Origin: Thermoanaerobaculia bacterium
Lineage (GTDB): Bacteria; Acidobacteriota; Thermoanaerobaculia; UBA5066; DATFVB01
Direction: 5' to 3'
Assembly: GCA_035717485.1 (NCBI GenBank)
Contig: DASTIQ010000303.1
Coordinates: 1 to 38,764, forward strand
DNA: 38,764 nt
The notes under the pieces are model-generated. The model saw only the letters and a list, made by a program, of their open reading frames with translations. It searched no databases and had not been told where the DNA came from. Positions 1-36,508 of the stretch are shown in pieces (position 1 is the stretch's first letter; the number at the start of each line of letters is the position of its first letter). Made by a program: the position numbers and the translations under genes.

Positions 1-1470
1 CGCGACGACCTTCGGAATCGCGGCGATCCGCGACTCGAGCTCCCGGGCGAACGCGGTGCGCGCCGCGGGCTGGCGATACCGCTGTCCGGGCAGCGCGACC
101 TGGAACGCGACCGCATGGCCCGGAGCGAAGCCGGGATCGACCGCCGTGAGGCGGACGAGACTGCGCAGGAGGAGACCGGCTCCGGCGAGGAGGACGAGAG
201 CGAGCGCGGTCTCGGCGGCGACGAGGAGCGATCCCGCCGTTCGCACGGACCGCGTGGCGGTCGCGCTTCCTCCCTCGTGCAGGGCGGCGGCCGCCCCCGG
301 CGCCGTCCGTGCCGCGAAGACGCCGAGTCCGAGCCCGACGGCGAGCGCGACGGCGGTGTTGAACGCGAGAACGGCCGCGTCGATCGAGACGCGCGCGTGG
401 ACGGGGAGCGGGAGCGGGCTCAGGGAGAGGAGAAACGGCAGGGCGGCGTAAGCCACGAGCGCGCCGGCGGCGGCCCCTCCGCCCGCCAGCAGCAGGCACT
501 CCGCGACGATCAGGCGGAAGCGGTCCCATGCCCCGGCGCCGAGCGCCGCCCGGATCGCGAGCTCGCGCCGCCGTGCGGCCGAGCGGGCGAGCACCAGGCT
601 CGAGACGTTCGCGGAGGCGATCAGGAGGACGAGCGCCACGGCGCCGAGCAGCGTCAGGAGCGCGGGGCGGATCTTCCCCAGGAGATGCTCGCGCAGCGGG
701 ACGACCCGGACCGCCGTCCGCGGGTCGCCGGCGGGACGGCCGTCGAGCCGGGTGGCGAGCGCCGCGAGTTCCTGGCTTGCCGCTTCGGGCGAGACGCCGC
801 GCCGCAGGCGCCCCGCGACGGAGAGCATGCGGACGTATCCGCGGCTGTGCGAGAAGGGATTTCGTTCGAGGGGCGTCCAGAGGTCGGCGGCTTCCAGGAA
901 CTCGAACCCGGGGGCGGCGACACCGACGATCGTCGCCGCCTCGCCGTCGACCGAGAGCGTGCGGCCGACGATTCGCGGTTCGGCGCCGAAGCGCCTCCGC
1001 CAGAGGCCGTCGCTGATCACCACGACCGGGGCCGCCGTGCGGTGCTCGGCAGCCGTGAAGCCGCGGCCGGCCGCGGGCGGGATGCCGAGCACGTCGAAGA
1101 ACCCCTCCGAGACGAAGTGACCCTTGATCTGCTCGGGATCGGACCCGCCGGTCAGGACGAAATTCCAGAGCGGCGAGACGGCGATGAGGCTCTCGAAGCT
1201 CCGGCTCTGCGCCCGCCACTGGCGGAACTCGTCGAAGGAGGCCGGGCGCTCGGCGGGCTCGCGTCGGGCATCGACTCCGGCGACGAACGCGAGCCGGTCC
1301 GGCTCCCGGTACGGGAGCGAACGCAGCAGCAGCGCGCGGACGACGCTGAAGACCGCCGTGTTGGCGCCGATTCCCACGGCGAGCGTCGCGATCGCGATCG
1401 CCGCGAACTTCGGGCGCCGGCGGACCATGCGCGCGGCGACCGCGATGTCCCGGACGAGATCTCGAACCAT
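1..1470 (-). CDS. ADOP-type double MacB/FtsX permease, permease 1 (partial, C-terminus beyond window)
   Basis: Inner-membrane permease of the MacB/FtsX superfamily, last visible member of the array. The 490 codons present cover the first transmembrane helix with the family signature GIGANTAVFSVV, the first large periplasmic domain, and three helices of the first FtsX half. The cytoplasmic loop RELAIRAALGA is near residue 302. The start of the second half follows, with the AVDPGFAP-type turn after its first helix. The frame stays open to base 1. Two ATGs are possible. The one at 1476 would overlap the upstream stop as ATGA but sits directly against the GGAGGA Shine-Dalgarno; the one at 1470 has 6 bases of spacing and is chosen. 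Substrate unknown. Membership of the family is sure; a MacB-like export role is inferred. Confidence 0.93.
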   Translation of the reverse strand, partial: MVRDLVRDIAVAARMVRRRPKFAAIAIATLAVGIGANTAVFSVVRALLLRSLPYREPDRLAFVAGVDARREPAERPASFDEFRQWRAQSRSFESLIAVSPLWNFVLTGGSDPEQIKGHFVSEGFFDVLGIPPAAGRGFTAAEHRTAAPVVVISDGLWRRRFGAEPRIVGRTLSVDGEAATIVGVAAPGFEFLEAADLWTPLERNPFSHSRGYVRMLSVAGRLRRGVSPEAASQELAALATRLDGRPAGDPRTAVRVVPLREHLLGKIRPALLTLLGAVALVLLIASANVSSLVLARSAARRRELAIRAALGAGAWDRFRLIVAECLLLAGGGAAAGALVAYAALPFLLSLSPLPLPVHARVSIDAAVLAFNTAVALAVGLGLGVFAARTAPGAAAALHEGGSATATRSVRTAGSLLVAAETALALVLLAGAGLLLRSLVRLTAVDPGFAPGHAVAFQVALPGQRYRQPAARTAFARELESRIAAIPKVVA

Positions 1471-3894: not shown

Positions 3895-6411
3895 CTATTC
3901 GGCCCGCAGGGCGGTCATCGGGTCGACGGAAGACGCGCGCCGCGCCGGAAGCCAGGCGGCGACGGCCGCGGTCGCGAGCAGGATGGCGGCGGAGGAGGCG
4001 AGCACGACGGGGTCGAGGACGCCGAGCCCGAAGAGCTGGCTGCGCAGGACGCGCGTCGAGGCGACCGCGCCGGCCGCGCCGACGGCGAGTCCGGCGAGCG
4101 TTTGCGCGAGCGCGTCGCGCATCACGGACGTCCGGATGCGCGAGGCCGTCGCCCCGAGCGCGATGCGCACGCCGATTTCGCGGGTCCGGCGGGCGACCGA
4201 GAACGCGAGCGCCGCGTAGAGGCCGATCGCGGCCAAAAGGAGCGCGAGCGCCGCGAACGAGCCCGTCAGGATCGCGAAGACCCGTTCGACCGAGAGCGCG
4301 CCGTCGATCGCGTCGTCCTGCGTCTGCAGGTCGACGACCGGCAGGTTCGGGTCGAGCGAGGCGACGGTTTCCCGGATCGCGGCCATGGTCGCGCCGGGCT
4401 CGCCGACGCTCCGAACATGGAAAAGCATCTCGTCGGGGGCGACGGGTCTCTCCCGATAGGTCATGTAGAAGGTCGGCGGAGCGGCGTCGCGGAGCCGGTT
4501 GTAGCGGACGTTTCCCGCGATCCCGACGACGGTGACCGGGGGCCGGGCGGGCCCGAGCCGGATCGATTTGCCGAGCGGATCCTCGCCGGGGAAGACGATT
4601 CGGGCGAACTCGCGGTTGACGACCGCCGAGGGCGCCTGCGGCGACCGATCGCGCTCGTCGAGGGGACGGCCGGCAACGACCGGGATGCGGAGGGTGTCGA
4701 AGTAGCCCGCGCCGACCAGATTGACGTGCACGTCCGTCTCGCGGGGGTCGCCCGGCGTCGAGATCGTCGTCGTCGATTCTCCTCCGCCGACGGTTCCGTG
4801 GAGAGCGAGGGTCGCGGAGGCGACGCCCGGGATCGCCTCGAGCCGTCGTCGAAGTTCGTCGTAGAAGCCGGCGAGCCGCTCCCCGGCATAGCCGTTCAAT
4901 CCGGGACGGACCGAAAAAAGAACGAGGTGGTCCGGGCGGAACCCGAGATCCACCCGGCGCAAGTTCGCGAGCGTCCGCGCGAACAGGCCCGCGGCCGTGA
5001 CGAGCACGAGTCCGAGGGCGACCTGGGCCGCGACGAGCGCTCCCGCGCCGCGGGTCCCGGCGCGTCGTGCGCCGCCGATCGGCATCGCTTCTTTCAACGA
5101 CGGGGTGAGCTCCGCGTGCGACACGCGCCACGCCGGAAGGAGACCGGCGAGGACCCCGGTGGCCGCCGCGGCGGCGAGACCGAAGAGGAGCACGCGCCCG
5201 TTCATCGGGGATGCGAGGAGAAGCGGATGCCGGCTCCGCGCCATGACGGAGAGCACCGCGGCCGTCAGCGTCTGGGCGACGATGACGGCGGCGGCGCTGG
5301 CCCCGATGCCGAGGACGATGCTTTCGGTGAGGAGTTGGCGGACCAGGCGGCCGGTGTTCGCGCCGAGACTCCGCCGGATGGCGATCTCGCGGGTGCGGGA
5401 GGTCGCCCGGGCGAGGAGCAGGCCGGCCACGTTCGTGCACGCCACCGCGAGAACGAGGATCGAAAGGCCGAAGAGGATGAGCAGAGGCGTCGCGAGCCGA
5501 TGCCGCGTCCAGTCTTCTCCCCGGGCGAGAGGACGCAGCGCGAGGACCGGCCGGCCCGGCTCGTCGCCGGCCGAGCGGGGGGGAAGGAATCGGTCGAAGA
5601 TCGCGCGCGATTCCTGGAGCGCGACGGGGGAACGCACGCCGGGCCGGAGGAGGCCGCCGATCTCGATCCACCACGTGCCCGGGTCGCGGTACGGATCGAG
5701 GCCCTGTCCCATCCAGTCCGGAAGCACGGCGGGGAACGATCGGAGCGGCATCCAGAGATCCGGCGCCGACCCCGGCTCGAGCCCGAAGAACGCGCCGGGA
5801 AGGACGCCGACGAGCAGAACGCTCCGGCCGTTGATCAGGATCGGCCTTCCGACGGCCCCGCGATCACCTCCGAGGAGGCTCTCCCAAAAGCGGTGCGAGA
5901 TCACGGCCACGGGCGGGGCTCCGGTCCGGTCGTCGGAGGGGAGGAGCGTGCGTCCGATCGAGGGAGGAACGCCGAGGACGTCGAAGAACGACCCGGACAC
6001 GAACCGTGTCACCGCGGAGGAACCGCGGCCGGCGATCTGGATGTTCACGGAAGGGTCGTTCGCCATGATCGCAAAGGTCCGCGAGAACGCGCGGCTCTGC
6101 GACTGGAATGCTTCGAAGACGGGATACGGGAAGGAAGTGGTCCACGTCGCCCCGGTCCGCTCGTCCTTCCGCGAGCTCCCCTCGAGGTCCTGCACGATTT
6201 TGGGCCAGGCGCGCGCGGACCACGTGAGCAGAGCGAGGGAAGAAGGCTCGCGGACCGGCAAACGGCGCATCAGGAGCGCGTCGACGACCGAGAAGACCGC
6301 GAGGTTCGCGCCGACGCCGAGCGCGAGAGTCGCGATCGCGGCCGCGGCGAGTCCGGGTCGCCGCGCGAGCGACCGGAAGGCATACCGAAGGTCGTTTCCG
6401 AATCCGGTCAT
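3895..6411 (-). CDS. ADOP-type double MacB/FtsX permease, permease 3 (variant subclass)
   Basis: Complete 838-residue permease, the longest of the array. The extra length is in the first periplasmic domain, which differs from most neighbours. It has the FPYPVFEAFQSQSRAFS segment, VSGSFFDVLGVPPSIGR, and FFGLEPGSAPDLWMPL in place of the usual W-R-x-Q-x-R-S-F-E type. TM1 carries GVGANLAVFSVVDALLMRRL. Coupling loops are REIAIRRSLGA near 341 and REIGVRIALGA near 744. The C-terminus is ARRASSVDPMTALRAE. GGGAG precedes the ATG by 4 bases, right after the TGA of permease 4 (9-base gap). It is probably a distinct substrate class within the array; the substrate itself cannot be read from sequence. Confidence 0.95.
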   Translation of the reverse strand: MTGFGNDLRYAFRSLARRPGLAAAAIATLALGVGANLAVFSVVDALLMRRLPVREPSSLALLTWSARAWPKIVQDLEGSSRKDERTGATWTTSFPYPVFEAFQSQSRAFSRTFAIMANDPSVNIQIAGRGSSAVTRFVSGSFFDVLGVPPSIGRTLLPSDDRTGAPPVAVISHRFWESLLGGDRGAVGRPILINGRSVLLVGVLPGAFFGLEPGSAPDLWMPLRSFPAVLPDWMGQGLDPYRDPGTWWIEIGGLLRPGVRSPVALQESRAIFDRFLPPRSAGDEPGRPVLALRPLARGEDWTRHRLATPLLILFGLSILVLAVACTNVAGLLLARATSRTREIAIRRSLGANTGRLVRQLLTESIVLGIGASAAAVIVAQTLTAAVLSVMARSRHPLLLASPMNGRVLLFGLAAAAATGVLAGLLPAWRVSHAELTPSLKEAMPIGGARRAGTRGAGALVAAQVALGLVLVTAAGLFARTLANLRRVDLGFRPDHLVLFSVRPGLNGYAGERLAGFYDELRRRLEAIPGVASATLALHGTVGGGESTTTISTPGDPRETDVHVNLVGAGYFDTLRIPVVAGRPLDERDRSPQAPSAVVNREFARIVFPGEDPLGKSIRLGPARPPVTVVGIAGNVRYNRLRDAAPPTFYMTYRERPVAPDEMLFHVRSVGEPGATMAAIRETVASLDPNLPVVDLQTQDDAIDGALSVERVFAILTGSFAALALLLAAIGLYAALAFSVARRTREIGVRIALGATASRIRTSVMRDALAQTLAGLAVGAAGAVASTRVLRSQLFGLGVLDPVVLASSAAILLATAAVAAWLPARRASSVDPMTALRAE

Positions 6412-6420
6412 GTTTCTCCC

Positions 6421-8835
6421 TCACTCCTGTCGAAGGGCGGCCATCGGGTCGATCGACGAGGCGCGGCGCGCGGGAAGGAGCGCCGCGATCAGCGCGACGG
6501 CGAAGAGGATCCCGGAGACCGCCGCGTAGGTCGCCGGGTCGAACGGCTTCACGCCGAAGAGGATCCCGGAGAGGAGACGCGTCAGCAGGAGCGCTCCCGC
6601 CAGCCCGGCGGCGAGCCCGATCCCCGCGAGCCGGGCCGCTCCGCCGAGGACCATCGCGACCACGTCGCGCCGCCGGGCGCCGATCGCGATCCGGACGCCG
6701 ATCTCGCGCGTGCGCGCCGCGACGGCGTAGGAGAGGACGCCGTAGATCCCGATCGCGGCGAGGGCGAGCGCCGCGGCGGAGAAGACCGCGAGCAGGAACG
6801 CGTAGAAGCGCGGCGCCGAAACCGACCGGGAGACGACCTCTTCCATGGACGTCATCCCCACCACCGGTAGGTCCGCGTCCATGCGGCCGACGGCGTCCCG
6901 GACCGCCCGTCCCGCCGTTTCGGGCCGCTGCACGGTCCGGACGACGACGGTCAGGCCGGAGACCCCGACCTGGTCGAGCGGAAAGTAGGCGGCGGGCGCG
7001 GGCTCCTCGGAGAGGGACTCGTCGCGCGTGTCGCCGACGATGCCGACGATCGTTCCTTCGACGTTCTCCTTCACCGGTCGCGCCCCCATTCGGAGGTATT
7101 TCCCGATCGCGTCCCCGTTCGGCCAGAACCGGCGGGCGGCGGATCGGGTGATCAGGAGCACGCGCTGTCCGCCCCGGCGGTCGTGATCCGTGAACAGCCG
7201 CCCGGCGACGAGGGGGATCCGCATCGTCGAGAAGTAATCGGGGGAGACGACGCGGAGGTTCATCGACGGCTCGTCGGATTTCGCGACCGGAGCGCCCTCG
7301 ACCGTGAACGAACTGCTGAAGCTCGAGGTCGAGAGCGGCGCGCAGAAGACGGCGCCCGACGCCCGCACCCCGGGGATGCGGTCGAGCCGGGCGAGGAGGT
7401 CCCGGTAGAACGCCGAACGCGAGGCGGGATCCTTGTACTTCGCGTCGAGCGAAAGGTCGAAGGTGAGGACGTGGTCCGGCCGGAAGCCGGGATCGACGCG
7501 CACGAGGTTCGCGAAGCTCTTGACGAGGAGCCCGGCCCCGGCGAGGAGCAGGAGCGCGAGCGCCATCTCGGCGGCGACGAGGAAATCGCGCGTCCGCCGG
7601 CGGGCAGGACGGTCGCCGGGCGCGGTTTCCCGGAGAGAAGCCGGAAGGCTCGACGCGGTCGCGCGGAGCGCCGGCGCGAGCCCGAAGAGGATCGCGGTCG
7701 CGGCGGCGATCGCCGCCGTCGCGGCGAGCACCGCGCCGTCGATCCCCGCTTCCGCGAGCCGCGGGATGTCCGTCGGGCCGAAGCGGGCGATCCATCGGTC
7801 GGCCAGGACCGCGAGGCCCACGCCGGCCGCGGTCCCGGCCGCCGCGAGCAGCATCGATTCCGTGAGCAGCTGGCGGACGATCCGGGCGCGTCCCGCGCCG
7901 AGCGCCCGTCGCACGGCGATCTCGCGCTCGCGCCGGGCCCCCCGGGCGAGCAGCAGGTTCGCGACGTTCCCGCATGCGATCAGCAGCACGAGGGTGACCG
8001 CGCCGGTCAGGACGAGGAGCGCGGGCTTCACCTTCCCGACGATCTGTTCCTTGAGGATGCGGAGGGAGACGGTATGTCCCTTGTCCTGGTCGGGATACGC
8101 CGCCGCCAGACGCGCCGCGATCCCCTTCATCTCGGCCTCCGCGGTGGCGAGCGACACCCCGTCGCGGAGACGGCCGACGACCGAAATGTAATGGGCTCCC
8201 CGCTGGCGCCCGACGTCCGGACCGAAGTCGAGCGGCGTCCACAGGTCGTGGCTTCCGAGCGGAAAAACGAGGTCCGCCGTGGCCACGCCGATCACGGTGT
8301 ACGGTTCGCCCCCGAGGCGGATCGTCGAGCCGACCGCGTCGGGCCGCCCGCCGAACCGGCGCAGCCACAACGCGTGGCTCAGGACGGCGACGTGGTCCTT
8401 GCCGGCCGCGCACTCCGCCGGGGAGTACACGCGGCCGAGCGCCGGCCGCACCCCGAGAACGGAGAAGAACGAGCCCGTCGTCGAGGCGTAGTCCACCTGC
8501 TCGGGTTCTCCCGATCCGGTCAGCGGATCCGAGCTCCGCGCGTAGGCGGCGAGGTCCGAGAACGACCGGTTCTGCGCGCGCCAGTCGAGGAAGTTCGGGG
8601 GGGATGCGGTCATCCCGAGCATGTTCTTCTCCGGCATGTCCTCGCGGATCATCACGAGGCGGTCGGGACGCGGGAACGGGAACGGCCGGAGGAGGACGCC
8701 GTTGACGACTCCCAGGACCGCCGTGTTGATGCCGATCCCGAGGGCGACGGTCGCGATCGCGACCGCGGTGAACGAGGGAGTCCGCCGGAGGCCGCGCCAG
8801 GCGTAACGAAGGTCCGAGACCAGGTCCGTCATCAT
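6421..8835 (-). CDS. ADOP-type double MacB/FtsX permease, permease 4
   Basis: Complete permease of 804 residues from the chosen start. The frame is open further upstream, but that stretch is a low-complexity Arg/Ser-rich translation of the permease 5 C-terminus and is rejected. GGAGAAGACG-ATGATG follows the permease 5 stop directly, so translation starts at 8835 or the adjacent ATG at 8832, giving MMTDLVSDLRYAWRG. Family marks: GIGINTAVLGVVNGVLLRPF in TM1; WRAQNRSFSDLAAYARSS; loop REIAVRRALGA near 304; second-half loop REIGVRIAIGA near 710; C-terminal ARRASSIDPMAALRQE. Two periplasmic and two FtsX domains are present and intact. Role inferred as an export permease energised by the operon's ATPase. 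Confidence 0.95.
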   Translation of the reverse strand: MMTDLVSDLRYAWRGLRRTPSFTAVAIATVALGIGINTAVLGVVNGVLLRPFPFPRPDRLVMIREDMPEKNMLGMTASPPNFLDWRAQNRSFSDLAAYARSSDPLTGSGEPEQVDYASTTGSFFSVLGVRPALGRVYSPAECAAGKDHVAVLSHALWLRRFGGRPDAVGSTIRLGGEPYTVIGVATADLVFPLGSHDLWTPLDFGPDVGRQRGAHYISVVGRLRDGVSLATAEAEMKGIAARLAAAYPDQDKGHTVSLRILKEQIVGKVKPALLVLTGAVTLVLLIACGNVANLLLARGARREREIAVRRALGAGRARIVRQLLTESMLLAAAGTAAGVGLAVLADRWIARFGPTDIPRLAEAGIDGAVLAATAAIAAATAILFGLAPALRATASSLPASLRETAPGDRPARRRTRDFLVAAEMALALLLLAGAGLLVKSFANLVRVDPGFRPDHVLTFDLSLDAKYKDPASRSAFYRDLLARLDRIPGVRASGAVFCAPLSTSSFSSSFTVEGAPVAKSDEPSMNLRVVSPDYFSTMRIPLVAGRLFTDHDRRGGQRVLLITRSAARRFWPNGDAIGKYLRMGARPVKENVEGTIVGIVGDTRDESLSEEPAPAAYFPLDQVGVSGLTVVVRTVQRPETAGRAVRDAVGRMDADLPVVGMTSMEEVVSRSVSAPRFYAFLLAVFSAAALALAAIGIYGVLSYAVAARTREIGVRIAIGARRRDVVAMVLGGAARLAGIGLAAGLAGALLLTRLLSGILFGVKPFDPATYAAVSGILFAVALIAALLPARRASSIDPMAALRQE

Positions 8836-8845
8836 CGTCTTCTCC

Positions 8846-11272
8846 TCACGATTCCCGCAGGGCCGCCGCCGGGTCGAGCCGCGTCGCGCGGCGCGCCGGG
8901 ACGAGGGAGGACGCCAGTGCGAGGCCCGCCGCGAGCACCGCGACGACGCCGAACGTCCCGGGGTCGCGGGGGCCGACCCCGTAGAGCTGACCGGCGAGGA
9001 GCCGCGTGGCGGCGAGCGAGCCCGCGAGCCCGAGCGCGACCCCCGCCGCGATACGGCCGGCGCTCCCGCCCGCGACGAGGCCGAGGATGTTTCCGCGGGT
9101 CGCGCCGAGCGCGATGCGGATGCCGAACTCGCGGCTCCGCTGGAGGACCGACTTCGAGGCGACGCCGTAGATGCCGATCGCGGAGAGGAGGAGAGCGATT
9201 CCCGCAAAGACGTTCAGGAGCACCGCCGCGAACCGGCGCTGTCCGGCCGACGCCGCCCGCGTCTGCTCCATCGTGGCGACGCCGTCGACGACCTGGTCGC
9301 GGTCGAGCTCGCGAACGGCGCGGCTCGCCGCGGCGGCCACCGCGGCGGGAGCGCGCTCCGCCCGGATCACCAGCGTCATGTCGTTGTCGGCCCGGAACTG
9401 TTCCTCGGGGAGGTAGATCTGGGGCGAGGGGGGAACGTCCAGGCCCCGGTGCCGCACGTCGCCGACGATGCCGACGATCGTTCGCCACGGCCCGTCCGTT
9501 CCGCCGACCTTCACGCGGCGGCCGAGGGCGTCGGCGGTTCCCCAGAAGCGGCGCGCGAGCGTCTCGTTCACGACGACGACCGGGTTCGCCCCCGCCCGGT
9601 CGGCCGCGGTCAGCCCGCGTCCCTTCCGAAGCGGGATCCCCATCGCCGCCAGATACTCCGGGCTCACCGAAAAACGATCCGCCGAGGGGTCGTTTTCCGG
9701 ATTCGCGTTGGGCCGGTCCTCCGCGTGGACGCCGTAGGCGTCGAAGTCGTTGCCGAGAGGAAGCTGGCTGACGACCGCCGCCGATCGGACTCCCGGGAGC
9801 GCGCGGACGCGGTCGAGGGCCCGCCGGTAGAACGCGACGATCGCGGCGTCCTCCCGGAACCGCGGTCCGGAGAGATGGACCTTCATCGAGACGAGGTTCT
9901 TCGGCTCGAAACCGGGGTCGACGTCGAAGAGGCGCGCGAGGCTCCGGATGAGAAGGCCGGCGCCGCAGAGCAGGACGACCGCGAGGGCGACGTCGAGGAC
10001 GACGAGACTGCCGAGGAAGCGGCGACGCCCGGGTCCCGCCGTTCCTCCCGAAACGTCGGCGATCGCCGCGGCGGGGTCGATCCGGTTCGCCGCGAGCGCG
10101 GGGGCGAGGCCGAACGCGATCCCCGTGGCGATCGAGACGGCCGCGCAGGCGAGGAGAACGCGGACGTCGATTCCCACGCCGGAGGTCCGCGGAAGGTCGA
10201 TCGGGGCCGCGAGGAGCAGGGCGCGCGCGGCGGCGCCGGAAAGGACCAGACCCAGCGCGCCTCCCGTCAGCGAGAGGAGCAGGCTTTCGGTCAGGAGCTG
10301 GCGGACGAGCCGCGCGCGTCCGGCGCCGAGAGAAATGCGAACGGCGATCTCCCTCCGGCGCTCCGCCATCCGCGCGACGAGGAGGCTCGCGACGTTCGCA
10401 CAGGCGAGGAGGAGAACGAGCGCGACGGCGCCGAGCAGGATCAGAAGAGGCGTGCGCACCGGTCCGAAGATCGTCTTCGCGAGCGGCTCGACGGCGACCC
10501 GGGTCGAGTCGTACTCGGTCGGAAACGCCCGGGCGAGCGCCGCCTGGATGGCCGAGAGATCGGCCGATGCCCGCGCCATGGTGACTCCCGGCTTCAGACG
10601 CCCGAATGCCCGCAGGTGATGGCAGGTGCGGCAGGCCCAGGCGAGCGTGGCGTCGTAGCCGAGGGGGGCCCAGATCTCCGTTTCGCCGCGCCGGCTGATC
10701 GCGAAGACGGATTCGAATCCCTCGGGAAGGACGCCGACGAGCGTGTAGGTCGTCCCGCCGAGCGAGATCGTCCGGCCGACGACCGACGGATCGCCGCCGA
10801 ACCCGCGGACGAACAGCCCGTGCCCGATGATCGCGACGTGATTGCGTCCCGGGCGGTCCTCTTCGGGGAGGAAGTCCCGCCCGAGGGCGGGACGGACCCC
10901 GATCATCCGGAAGAATCCCTGGCTCACGCGCAGCCCCTCGAGCGGCACGGCCGAAGCGCCTCCGAGGAGCGTCGGGCTCCAGTAGGACGCGACGGCGATG
11001 TCCTCGAAGCTCTTCGTCTGCCGCCTCCAGTCGGCGTAGGTGGCCCAGCCGACGTTGTCGCGGTTCCCGGCCGGGTCGAGCTCGGCGAGCGAGGCGATCG
11101 CCTCCGAGTGCGGGAACCGGAGCGGACGCAGGAGCACCCCGTCCACGACGGAGAAGATCGCGGTGTTCGCACCGATCCCGATCGCGAGCGTCGCGATCGC
11201 GACCGCCGTGAAGCCCGGCGACTTTCGGAAGCCGCGCAGCGCGAATCGGACGTCCTGGAGCAGACCGCTCAT
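8846..11272 (-). CDS. ADOP-type double MacB/FtsX permease, permease 5
   Basis: Complete 808-residue permease. The N-terminus [17 protein letters not shown] is almost the same as that of permease 6, because the first 15 codons lie in the 111-bp direct repeat. TM1 has [20 protein letters not shown]. The first periplasmic domain contains a local ACRTCHHL segment with two cysteines, near residue 210, unlike its neighbours. Coupling loops are [11 protein letters not shown] near 307 and [11 protein letters not shown] near 714. The C-terminus is [29 protein letters not shown] follows the TGA of permease 6 with a 10-base gap. The two cysteines might bind a ligand or form a disulfide; that is speculation. 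Family assignment is secure. Confidence 0.95.
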
Positions 11273-11336
11273 GGCTTCTCCTTCACTCTTCTCTCAAGGC
11301 CTTCATCGGATCGATGCGCGCCGCGCGGCGGGCGGG
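11226..11336. repeat. 111-bp direct repeat, copy A (permease 6/5 junction)
   Basis: Matches 13651-13761 at 110 of 111 positions by eye; the only difference is G at 11249 against C at 13674. It covers the last 17 codons plus stop of permease 6, the 10-base gap with the Shine-Dalgarno, and about 15 codons of permease 5. Identity stops abruptly at both ends. Same orientation as copy B, 2425 bases apart. Confidence 0.95.
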
Positions 11337-13697
11337 AAAGTAGGCGGCGGCCATCGCCACCGCGACGAGGATTGCGGGCACGGCGGCGAAGACCGCGGGG
11401 TCTCCCGCCGAAACGCCGAAGAGCACGGAACGCAGCACGCCCCGGGCGGCGTAAGCCGCCGCGAGCCCGGCCGCGATTCCGATCGCGACCGCGGGAACGA
11501 TCCTTCGCACGACGCCGGCCACGACCTCCCTTCGCGTGGCGCCGAGCGCCATCCGGATTCCGATCTCCCGGGTGCGGCCGGCCACGATCCGGCCGACGAC
11601 GCCCCAGAGGCCGCCTGCCGAGAGCGCCAATCCGACCGCGGTGAAACCGCCGAGGAGCACGAGGAGGAAACGTCGTCCGGCGAGAGAGCGGTCCGCCACC
11701 TCTTCCAGGGACGCGACTCGATAGAGCGGCTGCCTCGGATCGACGCGCCGAACCGCCGCGGCGAGGGTCTCGGCGATCCTGCGCGGCGGGACGCTCGTCC
11801 GAATGACGAGGGTCATGGCGCTCATGGGCCGCTGCGCCGCGGCGTAGTAGATCTCGCTCGTCGGCGCCGTGTCGACGGCGAGGCGCACGTCTCCGGCGAC
11901 TCCCACGACGGTGAACCAGGGACGCGGCTTGCCCGTTCCCTCCCGGGCGTTCGTGAAGCGCCGCCCCAGCGGGTCCTCGCCGGGCCAGAATCGCCGGGCC
12001 GCCGCGGCGCTCACGACGGCGACGAGAGGTTTCCCGGCGTCGTCGGTCGGGAGCAGGGAGCGGCCGCGGAGCACCGGAATCCGCATCGTCGAGAAATAGT
12101 CGGGCGCGACAATCGCGACGTCGGTCGAGGGAACGTTCGCCGCGGGTGGTTCCGGACGGCCTTCGACGACGATTCCATCCTGACGGTCTCCGGAGCCGAG
12201 CGGGAGCGGATTGACGGCGGATGCCCGGGTGACGCCCGGCAGGCGGCGAGATTCGGCCAGCACCGCGTCGAAGAAGCCGGGCCCCCGGGCCGGGTTCGAC
12301 GCCTCTTCCGGAGCGTCGAGCCGCGCGGTGAGGAGGTGGGACGGCACGAATCCCGGGTCGACCCGAAGGAGCGCCCAGAAGCTCCGCCCGAGCAGCCCCG
12401 TCCCGCAAAGGAGGACGAGGCACAGCGCGATCTCGCCGGCGATGAGCGTCGCCGCGACGCGCCCGCGGCGGGGGCCGTCTCCCTCGCGGCGGGCGAGGAG
12501 GTTCGGGCTCCTGGCGGAACGGAGCGCGGGGACGAGCCCGAAGAGGATTCCAATCGCCAGCGTGACGGCGGCGAGGACCGCGAGAACGCCTCCGTCGAGC
12601 TTCACCTCGTCCAGGCGCGCGATCTCGATCGTCCGCGACGACACGACGACGCGAAGGAGAGCCTGCGCCAGAACGAGCCCGGCGAGGGCGCCGGCGGCCG
12701 CGAGCACCACGCTCTCCGTCAGGAGCTGCCGGACGAGCTGCCGTCGCGCCGCGCCGATCGCGAGGCGGATCCCGATCTCACGTCGTCGCTCCGACCAGCG
12801 CGCCATCAGCAGGTTCGAGATGTTCGCGCACGCCATGAGGAGGAGCAGCAGGGCGGAGCCCGAAACGATGAGGAGGGCGGGACGGACGTCTCCGACCACG
12901 CTCTCCTGGAGCGACTCGAGTTCGATGCCGTTCTTTCCGTTTTCGGCGGGGTACGCCGCCGCCAGCCGCCGGCGCACGAGCTCCATGTCGGAGCGGGCCG
13001 CCGCCAGCGACACGCCGGGCCGGAGGCGGCCGATGGCATAGAGGCCGGGATGGCTCTGGCGCATCATCACGTCGGAACCGGGGTCACGGGCCCACGGTCC
13101 GAGGGGCGTCCACAGGTCGGCGTCGCCGTAGTCGTAGAACCGGACGTTCGGCGGGGCAATGCCGACGACCGTCCGGGCCGACCCGCCGATCACCAGCGGA
13201 CGCCCGACGATCGAGCGGTCCGCGCCGAAGCGCCGTTCCCAGAGCGCGTGGGAAACGAAGACGACCGGCGGCGCTCCGGGAAGATCGTCGGCCGGTTCGA
13301 GCGTGCGTCCGAGAAACGCCGGCAGACGCAGGGTCGCGAAGAAATTGCCGGAGACGACATGCGCGTTGAGCCTTTCCGGCGGAGCGCCGGGGAGGGTCGT
13401 GCTCGTTCCCGTGAACGCCGCGAGCGACTCGAAGGAGCGGTTTCGGTCTCGCCAGTCGAGATAATTCGGATACGAAACCGAGATTTCCGAGCCGTCCCGG
13501 CGCGTCTCGGCCAGTCGGACGAGCCTCCGCGCCTCGGGGTAGGGGAGGGGGTCGAGCAGGACGCTCTTCGCGACCGAGAAGATCGCGGTGTTCGCGCCCG
13601 TTCCGAGCGCCAGGATCAGAACGGCGAGCGCGGTGAATCCCGGCCGCCTGCGGAAGCCGCGCAGCGCGAATCGCACGTCCTGGAGCAGACCGCTCAT
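11283..13697 (-). CDS. ADOP-type double MacB/FtsX permease, permease 6 (bracketed by direct repeats)
   Basis: Complete 804-residue permease whose two ends lie in the two copies of a 111-bp near-identical direct repeat. TM1 has [20 protein letters not shown]. The first periplasmic domain begins with [17 protein letters not shown]. Coupling loops are [11 protein letters not shown] near 306 and [11 protein letters not shown] near 710. The C-terminus [16 protein letters not shown] is identical to that of permease 7. The Shine-Dalgarno and junction (AGGAGAAGCC-ATG after TGA) are identical to those of permease 5. The body of the protein is clearly diverged from 5 and 7, so this is not a recent whole-gene copy. 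Only the junctions look recent or homogenised. Confidence 0.95.
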
Positions 13698-13761
13698 GGC
13701 TTCTCCTTCACTCTTCTCTCAAGGCCTTCATCGGATCGATGCGCGCCGCGCGGCGGGCGGG
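13651..13761. repeat. 111-bp direct repeat, copy B (permease 7/6 junction)
   Basis: Second copy of the repeat at 11226-11336. It covers the C-terminal codons and stop of permease 7, the junction, and the first 15 codons of permease 6. Exchange between the copies would remove or duplicate exactly one complete permease gene and leave a normal junction. Confidence 0.95.
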
Positions 13762-18595: not shown

Positions 18596-21052
18596 TCACT
18601 CTTCCCGCAGCGCCGTCAGAGGATCGATGCGGACGGCGCGGCGAGCCGGCACGGCGCACGCGAGGAACGCGATCGCGCCGAGCACGGCCGCGACCCCGAT
18701 CAACGTCGCCGGGTCCGATCGCCCGACGCCGAAAAGGAATCCTTCGAAGAGACGTCCGAGGAGGAGCGCGCCGGCGAGCCCGGCGGCTCCGCCGAGAGCG
18801 ACGAGGCGCATTCCCGACCCGACGACCATCCGGAAGACCGTGTCCGGCCGAGCGCCGATCGCGACGCGGACCCCGATCTCATGGGTCCGCTGGGCCACCG
18901 TGTACGAGATGACGCCGAAGATACCGATCGCGGTGAGCGCGAGGGCGAGCCCGGCGAAGAGGGCGACGAGGAGCGAATTGAACTTTTCGCCGGCGACCGA
19001 ATCGGAGACGTAACGGGAGAGCGGCTGCGGCGCATACACGGGGAGGTCGGGATCGACGCGGCCGACGATTCGCCGGATCGACGCGAGAGCCGCCGCCGGA
19101 CCGCCGGCGCTTCGGACGACGAGCCACATCGAGCTGAAACCGGCCTGCGCCTCGGGGACGTACACCATCGGGCCGGGTTCCTCGCGCAGTCCGTCGAGCT
19201 TGACGTCTCCGACGACCCCCACGATCTCCCGGAAGGCGGGTTGCTCGCTGCCCGACGAGACGCTCGGCCGGATCCGCCGTCCGAGCGCGTTTCCGTCGGG
19301 AAAGAACTTCCGGGCGAGGGCCTCGTTGACGACGGCGACTCCGGGGCCGTCGAGATCGTCGCGCCGATCGAACTCCCGCCCCGCCCGGACGGCGATCCCG
19401 AGCGTCCGGAAATACCCGGGCTCCGCCACCGCGAAGGCCGCTTCCCACGGAAAACGCCGGCTCGACGAGGAGACCGTCGGAGCGATGCCGGCGCCCGGCT
19501 CGAGGGCGAACCCGATCCTGTTTTCGAAACCGGAGAGGGGAAGCGGCATCACCGCGCCGGCCGAGACGATTCCGGGGGCGCTTCGAAGATCGTCGACGAC
19601 CGATGCATAGGCCGCGGACGCCCGTTTCGCGTCCGGATACCGGAGCCCCGGCAGGTCGAGCCGCGCCGTGAGCACGCCTCGGGCGTCGAAACCCGGGTCG
19701 ACGCGCACGAGCCGGGCGAGGCTGCGGAGCAGGAGTCCCGCGCCGGCGAGCAGGACGAACGCCACGGCGACCTCGCCGATCAGGAGTCCCGCCCGGAGCC
19801 GGTGCCGCCCGCCGCCCGCGGTCGAACCCCGCTCCCGGAGAGCGTCCGCGAGGTTCGGGGTCGCGGAGGCGATCGCCGGGGCGAGGCCGAAGAGGATGCC
19901 CGTCGCGAGCGAGAGCGCGAGGGCGAAGACGAGGACGCCCAGGTCGAGGGTGACGTCTCCCGAGCGCGGGACGCGTCCGCCGGAGGCCGCGAGGAGAGCG
20001 GGAACCCCCCAGGCCGCGAGAAGGGTGCCGGCGACGCCGCCGACGACCGCCAGGACGACGCTCTCGGTCACGAGCTGTCCGACGATCCGGATCCGGCTCG
20101 CGCCGATCGCGGCGCGAATGGTGATCTCCGCCCGCCGGGCGGCCGAGCGGGCGAGAACGAGGTTGGCCGCGTTCGCGCAGGCGATCAGGAGCACGAGCCC
20201 GACGGCCGCGATGAGCATCGTGAGGGCGGGCCGCGCGTTTCGCACGAGGGGCTCGGCCGCGGGAACGACGCGGACGCTGAAGTTCCCGTCCGTGTCGGGA
20301 TATTCCTTCTGGAGGCGGGCCCCGATCGCCGTCATCTCGTTCTGCGCACGCGCGAGAGTGACGCCGGGCTTGAGCTTTCCGAACACGTCGATGAAGTGCG
20401 CGCCGCGCGTTTCCGCCGGTGACGGCCCGTCGCTCGACTCGTGGGCGAACGCGGCGGACAGCCACAGCTGTGCCGCGGAGCCGGCGACGGGAAGCCGGAA
20501 TCCGGGGCGCAGGATTCCGATCACGGTGAACGCGCGACCGTTCAACCGCAGCGACGATCCGACGGCGTCCCGCCGCCCGCCGAGAATCGTTCTCCAGAAA
20601 CCGTCGCTCACGACGATCACCCGCGCGCCGGCGCGGTCGTCTTCATCCGCGAAGATCCGGCCGGCCGCGGGACGCACGCCGAGAGCGCGCATCAGGCCGG
20701 CGGTGACCGCCGCGGCGTCGACGTGCTCCGGCTGCGTGGCGCCGCTGACGGAGAGGTCCATCGGATAGGTTCCACCGACCTCCTCGAAAACCGTGCTTCG
20801 CGATCGCCAGTCGGTCATGTCGGGGAAGCTCGCGGCACCCATCTCGGGTCCGTGGCTCGTCGCCGTCCGGAGCGCGACGATCCGGTCCGCATCCGGATAC
20901 GGGAGAGGTTTCAGCAGCACTCCGCGCACGACCGAGAAGATCGCCGTGTTGGCGCCGATGCCGAGCGCGAGCGTCGCGATCGCGGCGGCGGCGAAGCCGG
21001 GCGACTTGCGGAGGGACCGGAGCGCGTAGCGGAGATCGTGGACGATGCTCAT
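18596..21052 (-). CDS. ADOP-type double MacB/FtsX permease, permease 9
   Basis: Complete 818-residue permease. The N-terminal SPGFAAAAIATLALGIGANT block continues into TAIFSVVRGVLLKPLPYP. The first coupling loop is AEITIRAAIGA near 308, with Ala where most members have Arg. The second is HEIGVRVAIGA near 724, with His at the same position, a feature shared with permease 10. The C-terminus is ARRAVRIDPLTALREE. AGGAG overlaps the end of permease 10 and is followed by TGATCC-ATG, so its stop lies between the Shine-Dalgarno and the start, a tight translational coupling with a 3-base gap. Confidence 0.95.
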   Translation of the reverse strand: MSIVHDLRYALRSLRKSPGFAAAAIATLALGIGANTAIFSVVRGVLLKPLPYPDADRIVALRTATSHGPEMGAASFPDMTDWRSRSTVFEEVGGTYPMDLSVSGATQPEHVDAAAVTAGLMRALGVRPAAGRIFADEDDRAGARVIVVSDGFWRTILGGRRDAVGSSLRLNGRAFTVIGILRPGFRLPVAGSAAQLWLSAAFAHESSDGPSPAETRGAHFIDVFGKLKPGVTLARAQNEMTAIGARLQKEYPDTDGNFSVRVVPAAEPLVRNARPALTMLIAAVGLVLLIACANAANLVLARSAARRAEITIRAAIGASRIRIVGQLVTESVVLAVVGGVAGTLLAAWGVPALLAASGGRVPRSGDVTLDLGVLVFALALSLATGILFGLAPAIASATPNLADALRERGSTAGGGRHRLRAGLLIGEVAVAFVLLAGAGLLLRSLARLVRVDPGFDARGVLTARLDLPGLRYPDAKRASAAYASVVDDLRSAPGIVSAGAVMPLPLSGFENRIGFALEPGAGIAPTVSSSSRRFPWEAAFAVAEPGYFRTLGIAVRAGREFDRRDDLDGPGVAVVNEALARKFFPDGNALGRRIRPSVSSGSEQPAFREIVGVVGDVKLDGLREEPGPMVYVPEAQAGFSSMWLVVRSAGGPAAALASIRRIVGRVDPDLPVYAPQPLSRYVSDSVAGEKFNSLLVALFAGLALALTAIGIFGVISYTVAQRTHEIGVRVAIGARPDTVFRMVVGSGMRLVALGGAAGLAGALLLGRLFEGFLFGVGRSDPATLIGVAAVLGAIAFLACAVPARRAVRIDPLTALREE

Positions 21053-21055
21053 GGA

Positions 21056-23473
21056 TCACTCCTCTCGCAGGGCGACGATGGGGTCGACGCGAAGGGCGCG
21101 CCGCCCCGGCACGACCGACGCCGCGAAAGCGACGGCCAGGAGGATCATCGCGACGGCCGCGTAGGTCAGCCCGTCGGTGGCGGCGACGTCGAAGAGGAGG
21201 GCCGAAAGCGCGCGCGACACGAGCGCCGCGCCGATCAGTCCGATCGCGACGCCGATCGACGCGAGGAGCATTCCGCGCCCGACGACGCTCCGCAGGATGT
21301 CGCGCCGGGCCGCGCCGAGCGCCATGCGGACCCCGATCTCATGGGTGCGCCGCGCGACGGAGTACGAGAGCACGCCGTAGATCCCGATCGCGGCGAGCGC
21401 CAGCGCGAGCCCCGCGAAGATGGCCGTCAGGAAGGCGCGAAAGCGCGGTTGTTCGGTCGACTCCGCGACGACGTCGGCGAGCGGACGAATGTCGTGGACG
21501 GGCTCGTCGGGGTCGATCTCCGACACGGCCGTTCGGAGGGCCGCCGCCACGACGTCGGGGCGGCGCGCCCGGACGACGATCGCCATGCCGTCGGCCGCGT
21601 CCTGGGCATAGGGCTGGTACAGCTGGTTCGGCGCCGCGGACTCGAGCGACTCGCTGCGGGCGTCGCCGATGATCCCGACGATCGTGACCCAGTCGTTCGG
21701 CCCCGGCTCGTCCGCGAGGGAAATCCGTCGGCCGATCGGATCCTGTCCCGGAAATATCCTGTCGGCGAGCGTGCGATTGACGATCGCGACCTTCGGCGCT
21801 TCACGAGTATCGGCGGCCGAAAAACGTCGTCCGCGCAGGAGCGGAAGCCCGATCGTCTCGAAGTAGCCGGGCATGACCGACTGCTGGAAGGCGAACAGGG
21901 GATTGGCGCGATCGCGGACGCGTCCCTCGACGACGAACGACAGGTGCCACAGGCGGTCCTCCTCGAGCGGGAGATTGGACACGGCGCCCGCACTCTCGAC
22001 GCCCGGAAGAGCGCGCAGGCGATCGAGCAGACGCGCGCCGAAAGCCGCGATGTCGCGCCCCCGAGGGTATTTCGATTCCGGGAAGTCGAGCTGCGCGGTG
22101 ACGACGCCTTCGGTCCGAAAGCCCGGATCGACGCGTTCGAGACGCCAGAAGCTCTTCAGCATCAAGCCCGCCGTGATCAGGAGCACGACCGAAAGCGCGA
22201 GCTCGGACGCGACGAGAACCCTCCCCGCCCGGCCTTCGCCTCCAGCCAGCCGCCGGTCGCCGTTCTTCAGCGAATCGGCGAGGCGCTTGATCGAGGCGTG
22301 CGTCGCGGGTGCGAGGCCGAAGAGAACGCCGGTCGCGACGGAGATCGCGAGCGCGTACGCCAGCACGACCAGGTCCAGCCGGGCCTGGTCGAGGCGAGGA
22401 ATGTCGGCGGGACCGAAGCGCCGGATGAGCGCGACGCCCCCCGCCGCCGCGACGACCCCCAGCGCGCCGCCGATCAGGGAGAGCGCGACGCTTTCGACCA
22501 TCAGCTGACCGATCAGGCGCCCGCGTCCGGCGCCGAGCGCCGCGCGGACGGCGATTTCGCGCGAGCGCGCCGTCGCGCGCGAAAGGAGCATGTTCGCGAC
22601 GTTGACCGAGGCGATCGCGAGCAGGAGAAAGACCGACCCGAGGAGGGCGAGGAGCGCCGGCCGTGTGGGACCGGAGATTTCCCGGGAGAGCGGAAACGCG
22701 TCGATCTCGTGGTTGGTGTTCGATTTGGGGTACGTGCGCTGCAGAAAACGGGCGACGCCCGCGAGGTCCGCGCGGGCGGCGGCGAGCGTCACCCCGCGCT
22801 TCAAGCGGGCGACGACGCTCAGGTAGTGCCCGCTCCGGTTGTCCGGGCGGTATCCGTGGGTGATCGGGACGAAGAGATTCCCGGCCGTGGCCGCGGCAAT
22901 GTTCGGAAGCCGGATTCCCTCCGGCGCGACGCCGATCACGGTAAAGGGCTTCCCGTCGAGCAGGATCTTTCTCCCGAGGATGTGCGGATCCGCGAGAAAA
23001 CGCCGCACGAAGAAGCGGTGTCCGAGGACGACGACGTCGTCGCGGCCCTTCGTTTCCTCCTCCCGCCGGAAGCCGCGGCCGGGCTGTGGGGTGACGCCGA
23101 GGACGTCGAAGAAGCTCGCCGAAACGACGGCGCTGTCGACGCGTTCCGGCGGACCGTCGCCGGTCAAATTGAACGTCCAGCCGGAGTAGGCCGCCGCCCC
23201 GTCGAACGACCGGCTCCGGTCGCGCCAGTCGAGAAAATCCGGATAGCTCGCGACGACGTGGTCGCTCTTCGGCCGCCGTTCCCAGAGCATCACGAGGCGC
23301 TGCGGATCGCGGTAGGGAAGAGGCCGGAGGACGACGGCATCGACGACCGAAAAGATGGCCGTGTTGGCGCCGATTCCGAGGGCGATCGTCGCGATCGCGA
23401 CCGCGGCGAAGCCGGGCGACTTGCGAAGCGAGCGCACGGCGTAGCGGATGTCGGAGAGGAGGTGGGAGATCAT
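21056..23473 (-). CDS. ADOP-type double MacB/FtsX permease, permease 10
   Basis: Complete 805-residue permease, the closest relative in feel to permease 9. It has SPGFAAVAIATIALGIGANT and then VFSVVDAVVLRPLPYRDPQR-type context, and the second loop is HEIGVRMALGA near 711 as in permease 9. The first loop is REIAVRAALGA near 305. The first periplasmic domain has FLDWRDRSRSFDGAAAYSG. The C-terminus is GRRALRVDPIVALREE. Only a weak AGGG precedes the ATG, in the widest permease-permease gap of the array (15 bases). Both periplasmic domains are complete. Confidence 0.95.
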   Translation of the reverse strand: MISHLLSDIRYAVRSLRKSPGFAAVAIATIALGIGANTAIFSVVDAVVLRPLPYRDPQRLVMLWERRPKSDHVVASYPDFLDWRDRSRSFDGAAAYSGWTFNLTGDGPPERVDSAVVSASFFDVLGVTPQPGRGFRREEETKGRDDVVVLGHRFFVRRFLADPHILGRKILLDGKPFTVIGVAPEGIRLPNIAAATAGNLFVPITHGYRPDNRSGHYLSVVARLKRGVTLAAARADLAGVARFLQRTYPKSNTNHEIDAFPLSREISGPTRPALLALLGSVFLLLAIASVNVANMLLSRATARSREIAVRAALGAGRGRLIGQLMVESVALSLIGGALGVVAAAGGVALIRRFGPADIPRLDQARLDLVVLAYALAISVATGVLFGLAPATHASIKRLADSLKNGDRRLAGGEGRAGRVLVASELALSVVLLITAGLMLKSFWRLERVDPGFRTEGVVTAQLDFPESKYPRGRDIAAFGARLLDRLRALPGVESAGAVSNLPLEEDRLWHLSFVVEGRVRDRANPLFAFQQSVMPGYFETIGLPLLRGRRFSAADTREAPKVAIVNRTLADRIFPGQDPIGRRISLADEPGPNDWVTIVGIIGDARSESLESAAPNQLYQPYAQDAADGMAIVVRARRPDVVAAALRTAVSEIDPDEPVHDIRPLADVVAESTEQPRFRAFLTAIFAGLALALAAIGIYGVLSYSVARRTHEIGVRMALGAARRDILRSVVGRGMLLASIGVAIGLIGAALVSRALSALLFDVAATDGLTYAAVAMILLAVAFAASVVPGRRALRVDPIVALREE

Positions 23474-23488
23474 CGGTGAACCCTCATT

Positions 23489-25918
23489 TCATTCCGCACG
23501 AAGCACGGCCGCGGGGTCGACGCGCGCGGCGCGCCGCGCCGGCGGCCAGCAGGCGAAAACGGCGGCCGCGCCGAGGACCGCCGCGGCCGACGCGAGCGCC
23601 CGGGTGTCCAGCGCCGCCGTGGCGAAGAGGAACGCGGGCATGGCGCGGGCCATGGCGAAAGCGACGGCGGCCCCCGCGGCCATCCCTCCCGCGAGGAGCC
23701 GGGACGCGTCGCGAACGACGATTCCGCGGATGTCGGATCCCTCCGCGCCGAGCGCCATCCGAAGCGCGAACTCCTTGCGTCGGCGGAGGAGCACCGCGGA
23801 GAAGAGTCCGTGGATGCCGAGCGCCGCCAGGAGCACCGCGACGAGTCCGGCCCCCGACGCGACCCGGGCGGCGAGGAAGACGTCCGCCATCGACGACGAG
23901 ACCTGGTCCCGCATCGTCATGACCTCGGTCACCGGAATCGCCGGATCGGCATCGCTCGCGGCCTGGCGGAGCCGCTCGAGCATCGTTCGGGGGTCGTGGG
24001 CGGTGCGGATCACGAGCCGCGAGTCGATCGGATGGCCGAACGGGAACTGCCAGTACGCGAGATACACGAACGGGACGGAGGACCGGGATGCCGGGCGGAG
24101 CTGCGCGTCCCGGAAAACGCCCACGACCGTGAACGGAACGCCGTCGACCAGGATCGCGCGACCGAGAGCGTCGGCGCCGGGCCAGATCCCATCCGCCAGA
24201 GAGGCGTTGACGAGCGCGACGGCGGGAGAGCCGGTCCGGTCGCCCGCGTCGAACTCGCGTCCGTGCAGGAGCGGGATGCCGAGCGTGGCGAGGAACCGGG
24301 GGCCGATTTCGTGGTATCCGACCCGGCGTCCCGGCGCGGCGGCGGCCGCCGCCGTCGTGACCGTCGCTTCGCCCGTTTCCCGCCACGCGAAGCCGGCGCC
24401 GCGGGCCAGGCTGACGGATTCGACTCCCGGCATCGCTTCGAGGCGGCGAACCACCTCCCGGGTGTACCGTTCGGCGCGATCGGCGGAGGCGCCGACGAGC
24501 CGCGGGCGCAGACGCATCAGGGCGACCCGCGACGGATCGAAGCGCTTTCCGGAGCGGATGCTCGAGGCGCTGCGGGAGAGGAGGCCGGCGGCCGCGACGA
24601 GGGCGAACGAGAGGGCGATCTGGCCGGCCACGAGGAATGCGCGGTGACGGCTCTTTCCCGGGTCGCGGTCGTCCTTCAGCGCGGCGACGACGTTCGATCG
24701 GACCGCGTGAAGGGCGGGAAACAACCCGCAGAGCAGCCCGCCGAGGAGAGCGAGCGTGAGCGACGACAACCAGACGCGGACGGAGAGGGCAACCGGGAAA
24801 GCCCGGACGTAACCTTCCGAATCGGCCGTGTAGAAGGGGAGGACCCCCCCGCGCGCGGGAACCGAGAGGAGGACGCCGAGCGCGCCGGCGGCGCCGGCGG
24901 CGAGCAGGCTCTCGACGACGAGCTTCCGGACGAGCCGCGAGGGGGCGCATCCCAGGCTGCGCCGGATGGCGAGCTCCCTGCGCCGCGCCGCCGCCCGGAC
25001 GCCCTGCACGCCGGCGACGTTGGCGCACGACACGAGGAGCAGGAGGAGAGCCATCGCGGCGAGGAGGCGCATCGACGGAAGCATCGACCGCCGGACCCCG
25101 TCTTCGACTCCGCGCGCCCGATCGGCCACGAGGACGGCCCGCCGTTTCTCTGCCCCGCCGCGTCCATCGAGCGCGGGCCCGAGCGCCGCGAGGGCGGCCC
25201 GAACCCTTCCGATCGTCCATCCCGGGGCCACGCGGCCGATGATCTCGAGGGGCCGCGCGTGACCCGCGAGGGCGTCTCCCCATCGGTATCCGACCCGGAG
25301 CATCATCGTCGGGATCCAGAGGTCGTTCGCCGTTTCCGCGCGGGCTCCTCCGAAACCGCGCGGGGCGATCCCGACGACGGTGAAGGCGACGTCGTTGATC
25401 TTCACGACGCGTCCGAGGATCGCCGGGTCGCCGCCGAACCGGTCGCGCCAGAAACCTTCGCCGAGGACGACGACCGGGTCGCGGTCCGGAACCGCGTCTT
25501 CCTCCTCGCGGAAGAAGCGGCCCAGGGCGGGACGGACGCCGAGTGTTGCGAAGTAGTTCGCGCTCACGACGGCTCCCTGCGCCTCCCGGGCTCCGTCCGG
25601 GCCGTCGACGACGAGCGGAGCGGAGGAATAGTGCGCCGCGAGCGACTGCCAGCCGCGAGCCCGCGAGCGCAGGTCCCGATACTCGGGATACGAGAACGAA
25701 CCGTTCGCGCGGCCGTTCTCGACCCGGACGACGCGCGCGAGCCCGTCGGGAGAAGGAACCGGAAGCGGCCGAAAGAAGATGGTCTCCGCCACGGTCAGGA
25801 TGACGGCATTGGCGGCGATCGCGAGCCCGAGGATCGCGACCGACGCCGCGGTCGCCCCCGGGAACCGGCGCATCGCGCGGAGGCCGTCCCTGAGGTCGTG
25901 GAGGAGTCCCGGCATCAT
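23489..25918 (-). CDS. ADOP-type double MacB/FtsX permease, permease 11 (divergent)
   Basis: About 809 residues and the most divergent member. Tandem ATGs lie at 25918 and 25915. The first overlaps the TGA of permease 12 as ATGA, and AGGA lies just upstream. The frame is open for another 2.1 kb upstream, but that is Arg-rich shadow of permease 12. The TM1 signature has drifted to AIAANAVILTVAETIFFRPL. The first periplasmic domain is of the permease 3 type ([48 protein letters not shown]). Coupling loops are RELAIRRSLGC near 314, with Cys replacing Ala, and KEFALRMALGA near 715. The C-terminus is ARRAARVDPAAVLRAE. It is still intact, so probably functional with a different specificity. Confidence 0.93.
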   Translation of the reverse strand: MMPGLLHDLRDGLRAMRRFPGATAASVAILGLAIAANAVILTVAETIFFRPLPVPSPDGLARVVRVENGRANGSFSYPEYRDLRSRARGWQSLAAHYSSAPLVVDGPDGAREAQGAVVSANYFATLGVRPALGRFFREEEDAVPDRDPVVVLGEGFWRDRFGGDPAILGRVVKINDVAFTVVGIAPRGFGGARAETANDLWIPTMMLRVGYRWGDALAGHARPLEIIGRVAPGWTIGRVRAALAALGPALDGRGGAEKRRAVLVADRARGVEDGVRRSMLPSMRLLAAMALLLLLVSCANVAGVQGVRAAARRRELAIRRSLGCAPSRLVRKLVVESLLAAGAAGALGVLLSVPARGGVLPFYTADSEGYVRAFPVALSVRVWLSSLTLALLGGLLCGLFPALHAVRSNVVAALKDDRDPGKSRHRAFLVAGQIALSFALVAAAGLLSRSASSIRSGKRFDPSRVALMRLRPRLVGASADRAERYTREVVRRLEAMPGVESVSLARGAGFAWRETGEATVTTAAAAAAPGRRVGYHEIGPRFLATLGIPLLHGREFDAGDRTGSPAVALVNASLADGIWPGADALGRAILVDGVPFTVVGVFRDAQLRPASRSSVPFVYLAYWQFPFGHPIDSRLVIRTAHDPRTMLERLRQAASDADPAIPVTEVMTMRDQVSSSMADVFLAARVASGAGLVAVLLAALGIHGLFSAVLLRRRKEFALRMALGAEGSDIRGIVVRDASRLLAGGMAAGAAVAFAMARAMPAFLFATAALDTRALASAAAVLGAAAVFACWPPARRAARVDPAAVLRAE

Positions 25919-29199: not shown

Positions 29200-29210
29200 C
29201 GCCCTTCCTT

Positions 29211-30609: not shown

Positions 30610-30726
30610 CGCGGTCAGGTCTTTCCGAAAAAGAAATAATACGCGCGGGCTCAATGTTTTCATTGTCGAACGCCCAAGCCATCGGTCGGACTCGCGAAAA
30701 GCGGGCTGTTCAGAGGAGTGAATCTG

Positions 30727-34647: not shown

Positions 34648-34865
34648 CTTCGATCGTTTCGCTTCCTTCCGACGCGCAACGTCACGCCGCGAGCTCGCGA
34701 CGCGTCCTGACGGATCGACAGATTCGTTCTCTTCGCACACCGACAATGGAGCGTTCACATCAGGCGAAACGAGGGCGTTTGCTCTACCGTGAGCTTGTCG
34801 GAAAAAAAGGGAAGCGCCGCCCCGGCGCGAGGCCACCGCGGAGCTCCCCACCTCAGGAGGACGTC

Positions 34866-36379: not shown

Positions 36380-36472
36380 CATGAGGACGGGCGATTCGAT
36401 TTTCCCTTCGCGCGACGGAGATCGATGCGTCCCGCCCGAATCCCCCCGCCTCTCTCCGAAACGCGGCGGGAT

Positions 36473-36501
36473 TTGGCGTTCCCCGGACCATCCCCCATAA
36501 T
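36473..36501 (+). promoter_or_regulatory. Sigma-70-type promoter for the polysaccharide operon
   Basis: TTGGCG (36473-36478), 17-base spacer, CATAAT (36496-36501): 4 of 6 and 5 of 6 matches to consensus. Seven bases after the -10 comes the in-frame GTG at 36509, exactly where transcription should begin. This suggests a leaderless message for the ligase-like gene. Confidence 0.6.
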
Positions 36502-36508
36502 CCGCGCC

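Follow-up and report, generated by a model that had tools for sequence, protein, structure and literature searches.

A fundamental question raised by this locus is how two almost identical 111-bp sequences come to lie at neighboring gene junctions of an array whose genes are themselves strongly diverged. The window, meaning the whole stretch of 38,764 nucleotides analyzed here, is the entire contig 303 of a metagenome-derived draft genome assembled in 339 contigs. The permease family and the nearest database matches suggest that its source is an acidobacterium or a close relative of that group. Its minus strand encodes an operon-like series consisting of a HlyD/MacA-type membrane fusion protein (29211–30458; PF13437 6e-16, PF16576 6e-15), an ABC ATPase (28495–29244; PF00005 5e-35) and then twelve ADOP permeases, P12 down to P1. 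ADOP family duplicated permeases (TIGR03434) are tandem orphan permeases of Acidobacteria and relatives, and each comprises two MacB periplasmic core domains and two FtsX domains without an ATPase domain of its own. A profile search finds this architecture in P6, with two stretches of PF12704, two stretches of PF02687 and no ABC_tran. The permeases run from P12, the first of the array (25915–28380), through P11 (23489–25906, start uncertain), P10 (21056–23473), P9 (18596–21052), P8 (16126–18588), P7 (13708–16116; 861 bits), P6 (11283–13697; 804 aa, 890.6 bits), P5 (8846–11272; 930 bits), P4 (6421–8835), P3 (3895–6411) and P2 (1473–3893) to P1 (1–1463), truncated where the contig ends and matching profile positions 1–492. 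All match TIGR03434, and every complete member scores above the curated cut-off of 622 bits (709–930 bits for P2, P5, P6, P7 and P12); across this genome the ADOP profile has 41 matches, of which 22 exceed the cut-off. The tandem arrangement of complete, strongly diverged permeases is typical of the family, whereas the position of the array downstream of an ABC ATPase and a HlyD protein, and the apparently recent tract shared by two neighboring junctions, are unlike the usual ADOP case. Adjoining the array on the plus strand are genes for a Lon protease (30718–33225), an SLH-domain protein (34746–36308) and a Wzy-type O-antigen ligase (36425–37840).

The direct repeat occupies positions 11226–11336 and 13651–13761 and reads on the minus strand, like the genes that it joins. 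The copies agree at 110 of 111 positions, and the sole mismatch (G at 11249, C at 13674) is a synonymous third position in a valine codon, GTC or GTG on the coding strand. Each copy is composed of a 54-nt permease tail including the stop codon, a 10-nt gap, AGGAGAAGCC, that carries the ribosome-binding site (RBS), and the 47-nt head of the next permease. In the first copy these are the P6 tail (11283–11336), the gap (11273–11282) and the P5 head (11226–11272), and in the second the P7 tail (13708–13761), the gap (13698–13707) and the P6 head (13651–13697). Just beyond the repeat on either side, identity drops immediately to the paralog level, which for whole genes is ~56% at the nucleotide level for both P5/P6 and P6/P7. 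The initial annotation had reported these coordinates, the one-base difference, the abrupt ends and the divergence of the joined genes, and had described each copy as spanning a gene end, a ribosome site and the next gene start; all of this proved exact. No exact direct repeat in the window reaches 30 bp apart from the 87-bp exact core, which starts at 11250 and 13675, whereas the longest exact repeats in 20 Markov-1 simulations were 16–21 bp. The locus thus presents a near-identical tract with diverged flanks and sharp edges, as paralog gene conversion would leave.

Could the copies simply be alike because something at gene ends is conserved? Third codon positions agree at 32 of 33 sites in the repeat, compared with a mean of 0.45 and a maximum of 0.69–0.72 among the remaining gene heads and tails in the array, and for this reason the repeat is not accounted for by protein motifs conserved at these ends. 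A related hypothesis is that the tail–RBS–head sequence is retained because it couples translation or acts as an RNA element, which would fit the clustering of stop, RBS and start around the 10-nt gap, the status of the tail and head motifs as conserved parts of the family, and the ability of the repeat strand to fold end to end. However, that folding is unexceptional (z = -1.19, with 24 of 200 shuffles as good), the third-position agreement far exceeds the array mean, the other junctions of the operon are only 48–68% alike and have different gaps, and no locus beyond the window contig contains the exact 20-mer core. On junction comparison, third positions and folding, a conserved functional junction element was rejected, its sequence recurring neither at other junctions nor in relatives, and we consider functional constraint very improbable. 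The initial annotation had proposed that strong conservation of these 111 bp at every other junction in relatives would indicate such a functional cause, a test that does not apply to junctions so unlike one another.

Among 101 related genomes, good matches to the repeat occur only in the window's own genome and in its one congener, the sister species G001 (86% and 83%). Scanning the contigs of GTDB r220 yielded no relative closer than 46% amino acid identity, so that G001 is the only usable outgroup; no synteny of the array was seen beyond the genus, where best matches are scattered and mostly 35–46% identical at the amino acid level. Contig 183 of G001 carries P9 (C-terminal part), Qb, Qc, P6, P5, P4 and P3 (N-terminal part) in the window's order, and the genes common to both are 73–83% identical at the protein level. 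Over contigs 183, 233, 19 and 300, the G001 array reads P12, P11, P10, P9, Qb, Qc, P6, P5, P4, P3, R, P1, X2 and X3, with P12 (71%), P11 (72%), P10 (68%), P9 (80%), P6 (74% aa to Qd), P5 (83% aa to Qe), P4 (82.5%), P3 and P1 (89% to C19) all conserved. In the genes that flank the tract, the two species diverge by about 18–26%.

For this comparison the array of the window genome is taken as P12 to P1 followed by X1, X2 and X3, since contig 71 probably carries the array onward with the remainder of a P1-type gene and these three permeases. The start of that contig (L019:1–172) overlaps window positions 1–172 in the P1 gene at only 84%, and in G001 the P9 overlap that links contigs 233 and 183 is 87% identical. 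Such non-identical overlaps would reflect either strain mixing or near-duplicate genes at the array breaks; because they occur at array contig ends in both drafts, strain mixing is possible and the link between contigs 303 and 71 is tentative. The gap between X1 and X2 (L019:3606–3683) contains an additional ~70 bases, among them a hairpin-like inverted repeat (CGTTCGAAGGGCGTTTTCGCCCGAACG), that are absent from G001, which has no X1. The state of the drafts also bears on whether the repeat is an artefact of assembly, one junction having been merged with or copied over another. Contig breaks fall inside ADOP genes of this 339-contig draft, the contig-end overlaps are imperfect, and an exact repeat of 87 bp can mislead a short-read assembly. 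Against this, the P6-P5-P4-P3 order recurs in G001 together with a diverged junction pair of the same type, the two repeat copies differ at one site, and the gene bodies are unique sequence, and we regard an assembly artefact as improbable.

Comparison with G001 suggests which of the two junctions has changed. The head of the window P6 matches the P5 head at 46 of 47 positions but that of its own G001 ortholog, Qd, at only 34, and Qd also has a different gap. Directly past the tract the relationship reverts: P6 agrees with P5 at 31 of 47 positions and with Qd at 37 of 47, rising to 81% across the next 300 nt. The P6 tail and P5 head, by comparison, match the orthologous G001 junction Qd–Qe at 49/54 and 39/47, as ordinary orthologs do, so that in this single outgroup the P6–P5 junction retains its ortholog similarity while the tract is missing at the place of the other copy, where the P6 head and gap differ and the P7 tail is without a G001 ortholog for comparison. 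The initial annotation had suggested a recent recombination scar or junction-specific gene conversion, and this is borne out by the different P6 head in G001 and by the ending of the extra identity at the tract edge. Because the P6 head is so much closer to P5 than to its ortholog, the P6–P5 junction was probably copied onto P7–P6. This direction would depend on one outgroup and on a short, 47-nt head in which the contrast between 34/47 and the adjacent 37/47 is small.

On these grounds, we propose that the two copies are the product of a recent, gene-conversion-like, non-reciprocal recombination between neighboring junctions of the tandem ADOP permease operon, a reading to which we assign a probability of about 0.68. 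In this mechanism the conserved tail motif, the RBS gap and the conserved head motif would form one contiguous stretch able to pair, joining paralogs whose bodies have diverged too far to recombine. The P6–P5 junction (11226–11336) would most likely be the donor and P7–P6 (13651–13761) the recipient, such that P6 lost its original head and acquired that of P5, while the P7 tail was made identical to the P6 tail. The exchange presumably proceeded by RecA-type homologous recombination, and the single change in 111 bp would suggest that it was recent.

The arrangement in G001 would also fit a different history, in which a Qc-like gene with a P5-type head once lay between P7/Qb and P6, recombination between the Qc and P6 heads deleted Qc and gave P6 a Qc-type head, and the junction pair predates the species and has been homogenized since. 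Indeed, G001 now has Qc at this place, its Qb–Qc junction is of the same type, the Qc start resembles that of the window P6, and the heads of P7 and Qb are mutual best matches (0.81). However, the window P6 head is 46/47 identical to P5 and only about 0.81 identical to Qc, and the deletion would consequently need later homogenization anyway; we consider this history rather unlikely. The G001 junctions themselves, Qd–Qe and Qb–Qc, are 86% alike over 172 bp with two genes between them. At 20 informative sites, 9 join both G001 copies against the window, 7 join the window with Qd–Qe and 4 join it with Qb–Qc, a pattern that hints at junction homogenization in G001 too without proving it.

That exactly one gene is bracketed by direct repeats might also be expected if P6 arose by recent tandem duplication with a scar at its ends. 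The P5, P6 and P7 bodies, however, are only about 56% alike at the nucleotide level, and since P6 is orthologous to the G001 gene at the same place (74% aa), it is older than the species split. With paralog identity no higher than about 48% at the amino acid level and a P6 ortholog in G001, whole-gene duplication was rejected, and its probability is negligible. It had also been suggested that a crossover between the copies would cleanly delete or duplicate P6 as a 2425-bp unit; the geometry is right, but the event itself was not seen.

If conversion between junctions accounts for the repeat, how do the arrays themselves change? Three slots differ between the species, namely P8-P7 versus Qb-Qc (slot A), P2 versus R (slot B) and X1 versus nothing, and each sits within single contigs in both genomes. 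Neither P7, whose best G001 match is 42%, nor P8 has an ortholog there. The body of Qb (L059:1374–3866) is nearest to an ADOP of another family (G003 contig 63, L146) at 53% amino acid identity, and yet its last 20 codons are 43% identical to that gene at the nucleotide level and 86% identical to P7; judged by these matches, Qb is a chimera of a foreign-type body and a local array tail. In addition, R and P1 of G001 are separated by 61 nt (L063 reverse complement, about 4095–4156) that contain a tail, KTDPMKASREE*, matching P2 at 30 of 39 nucleotides. No other gene's tail matches it as well, the runner-up reaching 27 and the paralogs averaging 24.5, and it is apparently a remnant of a replaced P2. 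The best paralog pair within either genome's array is about 48% identical at the amino acid level, so the arrays do not differ by recent whole-gene duplication, and near-identical gene bodies were found nowhere in the array. As read from these alignments, the species differ in that diverged genes have taken the place of others, or been inserted, at fixed slots. The initial annotation had taken the repeat to show array growth directly, and this turnover of slots, with no recent gene duplicate, leaves that interpretation unsupported.

The best reading of these observations is that the junction event is one instance of a wider, end-anchored recombination in the array, in which the gene ends would be the recombining parts and entire permease bodies between them would be swapped over time. 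More speculatively, ADOP arrays might be integrase-free cassette platforms in which conserved tail–RBS–head junctions serve as recombination sites, bodies of other lineages swap in fixed slots and take resident gene ends, and one ATPase and one membrane fusion protein serve the operon; this model is possible but doubtful at present.

Intrachromosomal gene conversion between paralogs is described for the PE/PPE genes of Mycobacterium tuberculosis (PMC12046097), and the present case is similar in having a short mosaic tract that is identical in donor and recipient and absent from an unconverted relative. It differs in that the PE/PPE genes are close paralogs with tracts inside genes, whereas here the partners are ~56% identical at the nucleotide level and the tract runs across stop, RBS and start. 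An ancient paralog expansion is described for Candidatus Solibacter usitatus Ellin6076 (PMC3174227), an acidobacterium that likewise has many diverged paralogs and no sign of recent whole-gene duplication; that paper does not discuss junction repeats or gene conversion, and the latter term is absent from its text. In the open literature searched, no study of conversion or slot turnover in ADOP arrays was found, and the ADOP name appears in a single paper, as a RAST annotation in Dyadobacter. Gene conversion of paralogs is a known process, and its junction-spanning form in an ADOP array appears to be new.

Some soil bacteria are rich in ADOP permeases, and we know of no account of how their arrays arise. 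The locus would provide a roughly dated case (one change per 111 bp versus about 18–26% between species) in which paralogs recombined although their divergence keeps them from pairing elsewhere. Taken with the slots, the leftover tail and the chimeric gene, it suggests that ADOP arrays change via replacement at gene ends and not by recent duplication, a question that can then be put to the test in long-read data from populations.

When every conserved paralog pair was scanned for segments in which a paralog beats both orthologs, only the neighbors P6/P5 and P10/P9 and one weak case, P10/P4, emerged, and these segments cluster mostly close to the gene start. The starts of P10 and P9 (window 23343–23425 and 20928–21010; L060:4754–4860 and 7157–7263) are 92% alike in both species, and in G001 the similarity reaches 98%, exceeding that between orthologs. 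A comparison covering 52 arrays and their 124 junctions identified 16 near-identical patches, mostly at gene ends, among which only the tract in the window spans a junction. The closest parallel is found in a Pyrinomonadaceae draft genome (L144, 1492–1787 and 3975–4270), where adjacent ADOP genes have their last 285 bp in common at 92.6%.
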